NCBI GenBank assembly: GCA_019248485.1 | Contig: JAEHGL010000006.1 | Coordinates: forward strand, 1-38,844 | Direction of reading: 5' to 3' | DNA: 38,844 nt | From: Candidatus Komeilibacteria bacterium S5_K13 | GTDB lineage: Bacteria > Patescibacteriota > Patescibacteriia > UBA1558 > S5-K13 | Shown: positions 22,909 to 27,014 of the stretch, one piece after another | Layout: the number at the start of each line of letters is the position of its first letter | Position numbering within the stretch: the stretch's first letter is position 1 | Notes under the pieces: model-generated | Told to the model about the DNA's origin: nothing | Seen by the model: the letters and a program-made list of their open reading frames with translations, nothing else | The model's database searches: none | Made by a program: the position numbers and the translations under genes

Positions 22909-25900
22909 TCATTCCTTAAATGGGCAAATATTTTTAAAATCACAATATTTACAAATAAAAGAATTCGGGTTTGCGCTAAAATCGCAACTATTTATTCCTT
23001 CAATTGATTTGAGTAATTTTTCTTTTATTTTGATTATATCTTTTTCTTTGGCTATAAAATTTACTTCTGTTCCATTGTTTAGATAATAAAATTTTAGATT
23101 GACCACTTTTTCTTTGAAAATTTCTTCATACGCCATTTGATAAATAAATAACTGTTCTTTGTCTTCAAAAGACAGTTTTTCCTTTGGCTCCCCTGTCTTA
23201 TAGTCAATAATTTCTACTCCTCCACTTACTTCATCCACTCTATCTATTTCACCTTTAAAACTATAATTATCTACTTTAAAATTAAATCCTTTCTCTAAAT
23301 ATTTTACTTTTGGCATATTGGCCTTTATCCCGGAATAAAACTCCTCGAGAGTCACTCTACCCATTTCCCAATATTTTTGCTTTGTAGTGTCGTCCAAAAA
23401 CCAATCCTCTTGCCAACTTTCCTCATAAAGCTTGAATAACTCTTCACGTGATACAAAAACTTTATCTTCAAAATTATTTTTTTTATTAGACTCAAACAAG
23501 CTCGACTGATTATTGTTTTTACGAAGCAAATAAAGCTGAAAAAATTTCTGCAAAACTAGATGCATCGTCTTTCCATAACTAAATTGACCCTTACCACTTA
23601 CTGGTATCTTCAATATATGAGAATAATAATATTGTCTTGGACAAGTCTCATAAGCCTTGAGTTGAGAAAATGAATATTGTTTTGGTAAAAGCTTTTTGAA
23701 GTCTTCTTTGCGAATTGTCTCGTCACCCAAATCTTCAAACACGCCAGATAAAAATGCGTTTTTATTCTCACGAATAAACTCTTCTTCTATTTTTATAAGC
23801 TCTAACTCATGCAAAAATCTTGATGGCTTTTTTTCCCTTGTTCCACCATAATCAAGTGCCCATGTAAAATAAAGGCCTTTTTTTGCTCTTGTCATTGCAA
23901 CGTAAAACAAACGTCTTTCTTCTTGCAAATGAACATCGCCACCTGGGATAACTTCTCTTATAAGCTTATCCGGTATTGAAATTGCCTCTCCTCTTTCCAT
24001 GCTTGGAAATCTTTTATCCACAAGAGAAATTATAAAAACATATTTAAATTCAAGGCCCTTTGCACCATGGACTGTCATAACTTTTATTCCCTCTGGGCCA
24101 TCATCTACATCACTTGTAAGTTTTCCACTATCTCCCGACTCAAGTTCCATATCAAAAAATATCAAAAAATCTTTTACATTTATACTATCATTTTCTCTTA
24201 TAAATAATTGTATCTTCTTGTAAAACTGATTTAAGTAGCTAAAAATTTCTTGCTTTTGAAACTCATCTTGAGAGTCAATCCATTTTAAGTATCCACTATC
24301 ATTTAAAAACGTCCAGACAATAGCCCAAATATTTTCTTTGAGTGCAAGATCAGTGTGCTTTTCTATTAACTCATTAATTGTTTTTAATTTTTTTTCTGTA
24401 TCACTAGATAATTTCAAATACACTCTAGGATTTCTTATAATTTCATAAATAGAAACTGACTTCTTTCTTGCCATATGAGAAATATTCACTGCATCTCTTG
24501 TCGGTATTTGCCAAAAACGAAAGTTAAGAACCCTCCACATCGCAGATGACTCATGATAATTATCCAAAAGTCGTAAATATGAAACAATATCTACTATAAT
24601 TTCTTTTTCATACAATCCGCTCGAAGCAATATACTGATATGGTATATTGGCACTCTTTAATGCTCCAATAATAGGCTTTGCAGATGCATTTGCACGAGTT
24701 AATATTGCAAAATCATTCCAACTCAAATTATCTGTATCAACTTTCAAAATTTCATATATTTTTTCTATTATTTTTCTAGCCTCATCATTTTCATCACTTC
24801 CTTGGATTACTGCAATTTCTCCAACATAGTCAACTTGCGAACCCAATTTCTTGCTAAGCTTTTTTCCTTTTGGCATACCCTCTGACAATTTTATCTCAAG
24901 TCTCTCTGGATTATTTTGTTGGATAAAGTTATATGATAAATCTAAGATATTTTGTGCGGATCTATAATTTTTTGTAAGAAGCACTTCTTTTGCATCACTA
25001 TAGTCTTTTTTAAATCCTAAAATATTATTCATAGAACTGCCCCTAAAAGCATAGATAGAATTATGAACAACAACTTTTTCCGCCAAAAAATTATGCGTTT
25101 TATCTATTTCAAGATCATATACAACCGAATTTGTCTTATGTTCTTTTATATCAATTATTTCATCATAAATAATTTCATTATTTATTTTCACTGGTAAATA
25201 ATGTCCTAGTAATAAATTTTTTGCGGGCATCACAAGCGCTGGAAGTGTCTGATAATTTAATTTCCCTATTCTTGCCCTTGCTTGAATAACGCCTCCAGTA
25301 ATATTTTCTAAATTTTTTAAATCTTTTTTAAGCTCAAGTAGATCGTTGCTAACTATTCTTAATCTTTTTCCAATTTTTGCACTTTGAAGTTTATACCCAT
25401 TTTTTGAAAGAATTTCTAAAATTCTCTTACTTGATGTTTGAATATTAATTTCGTGTTGAATTAAATATGTTTTCATTGATTCTCTTTTGTTTTTTACGTG
25501 ATCTTTGCTTCTATGTCTTCTTTGACACATATTTAAATTAATTTTTATTCTTTCTTTAGATCCTCTTATCACGCCAGAAAGACAAATATGAAAACTATTT
25601 AAATCTATATTTAGATCTTTTGCTAATTTTTGAATTCCGCAGTCAACATCTAATTGTTTATATAATTCTTTCAATTTATCTTCATATATGATAAGTCCTT
25701 TTCTATGTTTAAAACAGTAAGTGGGAATGGAATATTTCAAAGAATATAATTGCTCATAAAATCTTGCTTCTTCTTCTGTTTTACAAGATTTTATTCCTAT
25801 TATTTTGTCTGCCGATCTCTCGAGAGATAGTCTCCAAGAAAGATTTCGCGTAATTCCAATTCTCCAACCGATATCGCTTCTCCACATTAAATAAATATAA

Positions 25901-26976
25901 AAGAATTTACCTTTAATATTTGATGACGGAACATAACAAAACATTTTATGATTATCTGTAACTCTTATCTTAAATCCTTTTTTTGTTTCTATTGTCAAAA
26001 AATTAACATCTTTTTTGTTCTTAAAAACATGATTTACTATTGAAATTCCTATGTGTGATTTTCCTATTGCCGAAAAAACCTCGTCTCCAACCCTTATATT
26101 CTTAATTAATTTTTCACCACTTGGTGTTGATATTTTTGAATTTCCTGGCAAACATTGATCATCATCGCCGACTACTGTAATATTGTTTTTTGGATGAGCT
26201 AACATTTTGATAAGCTCGTATTGAGCGTAATTTGTATCTTGAAACTCATCTACCAAAATATACTTAAATAATTCCCTATATTTTTTTAATATATTTGGTC
26301 TTTCTTTAAAAAGTTTTATACAATAAGTTATCAAATCTCCGAAGTCTAATGAATCATTATCAAGTAATAATTGTTCATACGTATGATAAGCGCTTGCAAG
26401 TTCGCTTATTTTTTTTATTTCAAAATTAATACCTTCATCATCACTCTCATTATTATTTAACCTTAGCTTTTGAGCATAGTCCAAGTATTCTTGTGGAGAA
26501 ATAAGCTCATCTTTACAACGAGAAAAATGTTTTAATAATTCTTTTATAAACTTCGATGGATTTCCAAGTGGCTTATAATAATCTAGATCAAATCTGTCTA
26601 GATTTTTCCTCATCATCATAAAAGCACCTGACTCATCAAGCACCTTAAACTTTGCTGGAAGCCCGAGATCTATTCCATCTCTCTCCAAAATTTTCTGAGC
26701 AAAAGAATGAAATGTCATTACCCATAGGTCACCATATCCAAATGGTAACTCCCTATCAATTCTATCTTGCATTTCTGCTGCCGCCTTTTCAGTAAAGGTA
26801 AGAGCCAATATTTCATCAGGTGCTAAATTTTCAGATTCTATCAAATGCAAAACCCTCTGAGTAAGCACCGTTGTCTTGCCAGTTCCAGCTCCTGCAACTA
26901 TTAGAAGTGGGCCATTTCCATGCTCTATAGCAATTTTTTGTTGGGGATTAACCTTGATTTTGTCTGATATTGACAT
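22909..26976 (-). CDS. UvrD/PcrA-type DNA helicase with RecB-like Fe-S nuclease domain, interrupted by an intein
   Basis: A superfamily 1A helicase that unwinds DNA from 3' to 5', fused to a PD-(D/E)XK nuclease, as in AddA/AddB-type repair enzymes. From ATG at 26976 it has 1355 residues, about 990 after intein removal. Helicase motifs: GAGTGKTT (Walker A), ILVDEFQDTN (Walker B), GDDDQ-SIYAFRG (split by the intein), VMTVHGAKGLEF and FYVAMTRAKKGL. The C-terminus has EIDRVD and EIIDYKTGEP nuclease motifs. Four Cys (TCPRQYYY and CKYCDFKNICPF) should hold a [4Fe-4S] cluster. ATG at 26976 is chosen over GTG at 27012, whose extra residues would be hydrophobic and unlike the family. Confidence 0.93.
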   Translation of the reverse strand: MSISDKIKVNPQQKIAIEHGNGPLLIVAGAGTGKTTVLTQRVLHLIESENLAPDEILALTFTEKAAAEMQDRIDRELPFGYGDLWVMTFHSFAQKILERDGIDLGLPAKFKVLDESGAFMMMRKNLDRFDLDYYKPLGNPSKFIKELLKHFSRCKDELISPQEYLDYAQKLRLNNNESDDEGINFEIKKISELASAYHTYEQLLLDNDSLDFGDLITYCIKLFKERPNILKKYRELFKYILVDEFQDTNYAQYELIKMLAHPKNNITVVGDDDQCLPGNSKISTPSGEKLIKNIRVGDEVFSAIGKSHIGISIVNHVFKNKKDVNFLTIETKKGFKIRVTDNHKMFCYVPSSNIKGKFFYIYLMWRSDIGWRIGITRNLSWRLSLERSADKIIGIKSCKTEEEARFYEQLYSLKYSIPTYCFKHRKGLIIYEDKLKELYKQLDVDCGIQKLAKDLNIDLNSFHICLSGVIRGSKERIKINLNMCQRRHRSKDHVKNKRESMKTYLIQHEINIQTSSKRILEILSKNGYKLQSAKIGKRLRIVSNDLLELKKDLKNLENITGGVIQARARIGKLNYQTLPALVMPAKNLLLGHYLPVKINNEIIYDEIIDIKEHKTNSVVYDLEIDKTHNFLAEKVVVHNSIYAFRGSSMNNILGFKKDYSDAKEVLLTKNYRSAQNILDLSYNFIQQNNPERLEIKLSEGMPKGKKLSKKLGSQVDYVGEIAVIQGSDENDEARKIIEKIYEILKVDTDNLSWNDFAILTRANASAKPIIGALKSANIPYQYIASSGLYEKEIIVDIVSYLRLLDNYHESSAMWRVLNFRFWQIPTRDAVNISHMARKKSVSIYEIIRNPRVYLKLSSDTEKKLKTINELIEKHTDLALKENIWAIVWTFLNDSGYLKWIDSQDEFQKQEIFSYLNQFYKKIQLFIRENDSINVKDFLIFFDMELESGDSGKLTSDVDDGPEGIKVMTVHGAKGLEFKYVFIISLVDKRFPSMERGEAISIPDKLIREVIPGGDVHLQEERRLFYVAMTRAKKGLYFTWALDYGGTREKKPSRFLHELELIKIEEEFIRENKNAFLSGVFEDLGDETIRKEDFKKLLPKQYSFSQLKAYETCPRQYYYSHILKIPVSGKGQFSYGKTMHLVLQKFFQLYLLRKNNNQSSLFESNKKNNFEDKVFVSREELFKLYEESWQEDWFLDDTTKQKYWEMGRVTLEEFYSGIKANMPKVKYLEKGFNFKVDNYSFKGEIDRVDEVSGGVEIIDYKTGEPKEKLSFEDKEQLFIYQMAYEEIFKEKVVNLKFYYLNNGTEVNFIAKEKDIIKIKEKLLKSIEGINSCDFSANPNSFICKYCDFKNICPFKE
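25060..26154 (-). other. Intein with embedded GIY-YIG-type homing endonuclease
   Basis: A 365-residue protein-splicing element (residues 275-639 of the helicase) inserted between Gln and Ser of GDDDQ|SIYAFRG. Splicing residues are all present: Cys1, block B VTDNHKMF with the TxxH motif, block F VYDLEIDKTHNFLAEKVVVHN ending His-Asn, and +1 Ser. Between the splicing halves, residues 360-411 match a GIY-YIG nuclease: YIY (360-362), 9 residues, RIG (372-374), Arg382 eight residues after that Gly as in I-TevI (G19 to R27), and Glu408 in RFYEQLY. A helix-turn-helix-like region (CGIQKLAKDLNIDLNSFH) and a basic stretch follow, possibly for target binding. No LAGLIDADG or HNH motif is seen. The first Gly and first Tyr of the signature are replaced. 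Confidence 0.9.
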
Positions 26977-26981
26977 AAAAA

Positions 26982-27014
26982 TTATATTTGATACAATAAC
27001 AACAGAATACACAT
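26982..27014 (-). CDS. Ten-residue leader ORF before the helicase
   Basis: MCILLLLYQI, stop TAA, ends 5 bp before the helicase ATG. AGGAGG (27028-27023) lies 8 bases upstream of its ATG, the best SD spacing of any start here. The SD is buried in a strong hairpin (27015-27056). It may couple translation of the helicase to its own. Alternatively the SD is a by-product of the terminator hairpin, or serves the GTG at 27012. Confidence 0.35.
   Translation of the reverse strand: MCILLLLYQI

Follow-up and report, generated by a model that had tools for sequence, protein, structure and literature searches.

A divergent GIY-YIG-type nuclease module in a UvrD-type helicase intein of Candidatus Komeilibacteria, with relatives in bacteria, plasmids, and phages

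The stretch of DNA analyzed here (the window, 38,844 nucleotides, contig JAEHGL010000006.1 of Candidatus Komeilibacteria bacterium S5_K13) contains a UvrD-type helicase gene that is interrupted in frame by a 365-amino-acid intein, at positions 25060 to 26154 of the minus strand. We consider it likely, with a probability of about 85%, that this is a mobile intein of the class 1 type carrying a homing endonuclease of the GIY-YIG superfamily, and not one of the LAGLIDADG or HNH type. The basis for this reading is established in the anatomy of the intein, the homology and fold of its nuclease module, the invariance and constraint of the catalytic positions, the empty insertion sites, and a homing footprint in phages. 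An intein with a GIY-YIG-type nuclease inside a UvrD-type helicase had been proposed in a first-pass annotation made from the letters of the window, and domain matches, profile comparison, and the predicted fold all bear it out.

The host gene (positions 22909 to 27012, minus strand) encodes a superfamily 1 (SF1) helicase of the UvrD/PcrA type with a C-terminal PD-(D/E)XK nuclease domain, as judged by Pfam (UvrD-helicase, 4.6e-72; UvrD_C, 4.5e-53; PDDEXK_1, 3.4e-32) and NCBIfam (pcrA, 2e-137, under the equivalog cutoff). The protein is 1367 amino acids long with the intein and 1002 once spliced. The intein sits at VGDDDQ/SIY in the helicase motif III region, and the boundaries given in the first-pass annotation were exact, with Cys1 at 26154 to 26152 and Asn365 at 25062 to 25060. 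Its splicing residues, described there as complete, are all present: Cys1, the block TDNH (Thr66 and His69), THNF (His354), His364-Asn365, and a Ser at the +1 position. A position 1 nucleophile, a TxxH block, a C-terminal His-Asn, and the +1 Ser are the marks of a class 1 intein, as is in-frame insertion at a conserved site for which homologs without an intein are known. Pfam recognizes the intein as Intein_splicing (3.7e-18), and both NCBIfam intein models score above cutoff. The N-terminal splicing half (residues 1 to 78; 25921 to 26154) matches TIGR01445 (1.3e-07), and its AlphaFold2 (AF2) model has a Hint fold with Foldseek matches to intein structures. The C-terminal half (residues 315 to 365; 25060 to 25212) matches TIGR01443 (3.4e-05) and, at 34 bits, the archaeal intein structure 6rpq. 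Scans of the intein with Pfam, NCBIfam, and PHROGs gave splicing domains and no nuclease family, and sequence searches of the PDB, with the single protein and with a profile, gave Hint or intein folds and no nuclease. Foldseek matches with the whole intein were likewise dominated by Hint folds.

Between the two halves, residues 80 to 152 (25699 to 25917, minus strand) are best described as a divergent GIY-YIG module, to judge from profile comparison and structure modeling. Aligned by hhalign with GIY-YIG proteins of the same phylum, the module reached 92.8% with a score of 37.5, and the highest score among 150 column-permuted decoys was 16.5. Because the score is more than twice that of the best decoy, and because the key residues do not vary among 18 divergent inteins, we regard the likeness as beyond chance. 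When tested alike, known pairs within the superfamily gave about equal values (giy/t5, 87%; giy/uvrc, 83%). The short-loop clade, to which the window's intein belongs, reached 93.8% against GIY-YIG, and the alignment paired Arg108 and the last Glu with the Arg and Glu of the superfamily. A search of 380 genomes with a hidden Markov model (HMM) of the module matched a single open reading frame (ORF) outside inteins (2.1e-6), whose sequence looks like that of a plain, free-standing GIY-YIG protein of the URI type (MYYVYLL...YVGITKDIKKRLRDH...). Against a set of 1482 ORFs, the best matches of the same model were GIY-YIG ORFs. The nearest group to the module, by profile comparison, is the URI/COG2827-type GIY-YIG proteins rather than T5orf172, one of the two comparison families that had been suggested. 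T5orf172 and UvrC were both dropped as the nearest family at 2 to 6% in hhalign (T5orf172, 2 to 4%).

The order and spacing of motifs noticed at the outset are present in full, with Y86-I87-Y88, R98-I99-G100, Arg108 eight residues past the Gly, and a downstream Glu. That last residue had been numbered 408, which counts from an ATG 12 codons downstream; from the GTG start it is residue 420 of the helicase and Glu134 of the intein. AF2 predicts a beta-beta-alpha-beta-alpha arrangement for the module with the three-stranded sheet of GIY-YIG domains (pLDDT, 90.5 and 86.4), which places Tyr88 in the first strand, Arg98 in the second, Arg108 in the first helix, and Glu134 in the second. In a Foldseek search of the PDB, the UvrC GIY-YIG domain took ranks 1 and 2 (1yd5/1ycz; probabilities, 0.95 and 0.84), and BH0048 and Slx1 ranked lower.

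Six residues, Tyr88, Arg98, Gly100, Arg108, Glu112, and Glu134, are invariant in the 18 divergent members. Four of them (Tyr88, Gly100, Arg108, and Glu134) correspond to kept signature residues of the superfamily, namely, the Tyr of GIY, the Gly of YIG, the helix Arg, and the metal-binding Glu. In the superfamily mechanism, the Tyr of GIY acts as the general base and the Glu is a metal ligand (PMC10287932, PMC4081073). The other two invariant residues are replacements. The Tyr of YIG is Arg98 in 18 of 18 members, an equivalence read from the ungapped spacing to Gly100, where some HMM alignments put a one-residue gap, and Glu112 stands where a His or Tyr is usual, four residues past the Arg. 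Because of Arg98, we file the module as a noncanonical variant and not as a canonical member. The first Gly of the signature is also replaced, but it is missing as well in most URI/COG2827-type proteins of the same phylum (YYVYIL...) and is therefore no sign of decay. In other families of the superfamily, such as Slx1, the C-terminal motif can be lacking (PMC1564403).

Constraint on the module is strong. Its ratio of nonsynonymous to synonymous substitutions (dN/dS) was 0 to 0.18 in relatives. One pair from Rokubacteria differed in the module by 8 synonymous and 0 nonsynonymous changes, and a more distant Rokubacteria pair gave a dN/dS of 0.18 in the module versus 0.27 to 0.43 in other parts. 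In a phage pair, the values were 0.05 for the module, 0.25 to 0.27 for the N-terminal splicing half and the region past the module, and 0.03 for the C-terminal splicing half. The module was the part of the intein with the lowest dN/dS in two of the three comparisons that also covered the C-terminal half or the region past the module. The replaced Gly and Tyr had been taken to make activity uncertain, and the replacements are real. Degeneration of the module seems unlikely, given that no member varies at the changed positions and that purifying selection within the intein is strongest on the module.

Relatives covering the full length of the intein occur in other Patescibacteria, in Rokubacteria and Collierbacteria, in phi92-like and other enterobacterial phages, and in viral contigs; of 380 genomes sampled from the phylum, about a dozen had one. 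Nearly all of the bacterial relatives and the phi92-like ones are inserted at the same UvrD site, and the intein of SPO1 gp34.33 carries the module at VGDDDQ/SMY. The module also occurs in the intein of the UvrD helicase of Vibrio phage RYC and in a UvrD-like gene of a Thermobispora plasmid. A single-protein scan of viral contigs gave no match, and an alignment-based scan of them added two members (L071 and L072). A tblastn search of plasmids with the window's intein gave no match, and one with a relative as the query found two.

A footprint of homing, with signs that the intein has recently copied itself from one genome to another, comes from phi92-like phages. The helicase exteins of JohannJBalmer, an Escherichia phage, and KP2025, a Klebsiella phage, are near random at four-fold sites (0.25 to 0.54 identity); their inteins share 93 to 97% DNA identity over most of their length. 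The exception lies past the nuclease at helicase codons ∼470 to 540, where DNA identity falls to 63% in a block that looks like a swapped recognition segment. Without its 346 intein codons, the JohannJBalmer gene has exactly the length of the intein-free gene of phage ESCO9. The two genes differ at 49 positions, 28 of which lie inside 100 bp at the site (within 50 bp on either side), and elsewhere they differ by 1.3%, for an identity of ∼99%. Over the 28 bp upstream of the site, KP2025 differs from the donor-like flank at one base. This clustering, for which the computed P value treats the changes as independent, is the pattern expected from co-conversion during homing. Alternatively, the empty site may have been recoded to escape cutting, which would also require a working nuclease. 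A homing element is recognized by alleles with and without the intein that show co-converted flanks or transfer apart from the host gene, and such alleles are found in these phi92-like relatives.

In the window's own lineage, the empty site is seen as VGDDDQ directly before SIY or AIY in 8 related genomes. Three genomes of the same family, 70 to 74% identical in the N-terminal part of the helicase, have the empty site. The intein is missing from 34 relatives, and among 35 close relatives the window's copy is the only one; a genome at greater distance (L009, 66%) does carry it.

The region past the nuclease, a linker and putative DNA recognition region (residues 153 to 314; 25213 to 25698, minus strand), was assigned from the AF2 model, from hhalign against LAGLIDADG_3, and from the diverged or swapped phage block. 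A helix-turn-helix-like segment that might read the target had been proposed here. Two consecutive helices at residues 158 to 167 and 170 to 181 (25612 to 25683) do fit the model and could form a helix-turn-helix; a role in target reading is unproven, and residues ∼215 to 290 are the better candidate because the same block differs between near-identical phage inteins. AF2 predicts a beta-alpha-beta-beta-alpha unit within it, at residues of about 233 to 286. Its resemblance to the latter part of a LAGLIDADG half is weak and confined to the long-loop clade, and it is not seen in the window's clade. Against LAGLIDADG_3, the long-loop clade reached 40% with a score of 25.9 (decoys, at most 18.5), and the window's clade reached 2%. 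A LAGLIDADG origin of the C-terminal part of the intein is suggestive only.

The following course of events may be proposed. The precursor helicase would be translated together with the insert, and the Hint halves would excise the intein and join Gln286 to Ser652, which is predicted to restore helicase motif III. The intein, excised or still embedded, would then bind an uninterrupted uvrD site through residues ∼153 to 314, and the module at residues 80 to 152 would cut there. Tyr88 would serve as the general base, Glu134 as the metal ligand, and Arg108 as a phosphate contact, with Arg98 and Glu112 occupying the places of the YIG Tyr and the His or Tyr of other GIY-YIG enzymes. Repair of the break off the intein-bearing allele would copy the intein into the empty site.

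Several observations weigh against this reading. None of 19 intein members matches Pfam PF01541 or PF10544 at an E value of ≤10. The Foldseek E values, the best of which was 0.18, are weak, which is no surprise with a query of 73 residues; we take the Foldseek result to back the GIY-YIG assignment without proving it. The YIG Tyr is replaced throughout, and the C-terminal Asn of classical GIY-YIG enzymes is absent from the module. The homing footprint comes from phage relatives at 24 to 29% identity, outside the window's clade. Intein and host-gene trees are not in significant conflict (p-AU, 0.26); tree conflict was dropped as proof of transfer in bacteria, and a recent arrival of the window's copy is therefore only a possibility. 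Splicing, cleavage, target recognition, and the continued activity of the window's copy are inferred.

The changed active site, the missing Asn, and the solitary position of the window's copy among its close relatives would all suit a module of GIY-YIG descent whose nuclease activity is lost and which now only stabilizes the intein or modulates splicing. We think this unlikely. No variation is seen at the replaced positions, dN/dS within the intein is lowest in the module in two of the three comparisons described above, and phage members with the same residues carry the homing footprint. R.Hpy188I is active with a Lys (Lys73) where the YIG Tyr is expected (PMC2630997); it is a restriction enzyme with Lys rather than Arg, and its other motif positions differ, but it shares a basic residue at this place.

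That the module is instead a degenerate LAGLIDADG nuclease, resembling GIY-YIG by chance, is highly improbable and already largely refuted. Most inteins do carry LAGLIDADG nucleases, and one clade has the weak LAGLIDADG_3-like signal at residues 215 to 270. The module itself scores 8.1 against LAGLIDADG_3 in hhalign, versus its strong GIY-YIG score; a search of the 19 members with the LAGLIDADG Pfam families gave one chance-level, Hint-associated match and nothing further; and the predicted fold is beta-beta-alpha-beta-alpha. Compatible with a GIY-YIG homing endonuclease, and refining it, is a composite origin, in which an older LAGLIDADG intein took up a GIY-YIG cutter by insertion and its LAGLIDADG half decayed to a DNA-binding part. 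This is possible but doubtful. The downstream profile signal in the long-loop clade, the order of elements at residues 233 to 286, and the location there of the block that differs between phage inteins point toward it; the signal is absent from the window's clade, no LAGLIDADG helix or Asp is seen in the window's intein, and other small alpha/beta folds would look similar.

Intein nucleases are usually grouped as mostly LAGLIDADG, with fewer HNH and rare other types. LAGLIDADG inteins, such as PI-SceI and PI-PfuI, share with the window's intein the Hint splicing fold and a nuclease between its halves, but their nuclease fold is unrelated. The URI/COG2827-type proteins (PF01541; BH0048, PDB 1zg2) share the strand-strand-helix-strand-helix core, a YxYL/VYIL start, an eA...E in the last helix, and, with the window's clade, the Arg 8 residues past the Gly. 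Unlike the module, they are free-standing proteins outside inteins, with the YIG Tyr and R-x3-H instead of Arg98 and R-x3-Glu. I-TevI and other GIY-YIG homing endonucleases likewise join the superfamily core to a separate DNA-binding region and serve homing, but they are encoded in group I introns or are free-standing. The same nuclease module is present in the UvrD-helicase inteins of SPO1 gp34.33, CampHawk, and the phi92-like phages, at the same site in SPO1 and the phi92-like phages, and these are annotated merely as intein or helicase. Papers on SPO1-like and phi92-like phages mention the intein and not its nuclease type, and the CampHawk paper gives none (PMC3868849). According to a 2006 survey of the GIY-YIG superfamily, no such nucleases were known from inteins (PMC1564403). 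Our literature search, which left subscription literature and intein databases outside its scope so that priority is uncertain, turned up no paper in which a GIY-YIG intein is named.

We think it probable that GIY-YIG inteins are widespread and form a class of intein homing endonuclease that has yet to be named. Members of this class would have a variant active site (Tyr, Arg replacing the YIG Tyr, Arg, Glu, and Glu), would lie in genes for DNA methyltransferases and UvrD-type helicases carried by bacteria, plasmids, and phages, and would still home in phages. If so, a whole class of intein nucleases was overlooked because Pfam models do not detect the module, even though SPO1, a classic phage, has it in its UvrD intein. 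The class would also provide a new cutting module that is compact (∼70 amino acids) and unusual in its active site, and the natural intein-plus and intein-minus phage alleles would permit direct homing tests in laboratory E. coli.

Some further occurrences were observed. Inteins with the same module lie in ParB-like/adenine-specific DNA methyltransferase genes of a Providencia plasmid and of Streptococcus suis prophages (L151:1613-3721 and L154:870-2981); the Providencia plasmid gene is missing from the PLSDB table. In a 485-kb uncultured phage (LR745208.1; L039:2501-2707), the intein with the module is inserted elsewhere in a helicase (DEAQDLN/C...N/CQHIM), and the module is therefore not bound to one insertion site. 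Klebsiella phage KP13-16 (L037:740-4336) has two inteins in one UvrD-like gene, one looking like LAGLIDADG at Walker A (GTGK/.../TS) and one of the GIY-YIG type at motif III. Two contig-end fragments of one genome (L033 and L017; G116:C21 end and C25 end; 55% and 41% identical) appear to be halves of one further short-loop-clade intein, and the same genome also holds a long-loop intein (L035). Finally, the window's own genome contains a GIY-YIG gene (L005; G000:C54:1655-1882) that is broken by one in-frame TAG.

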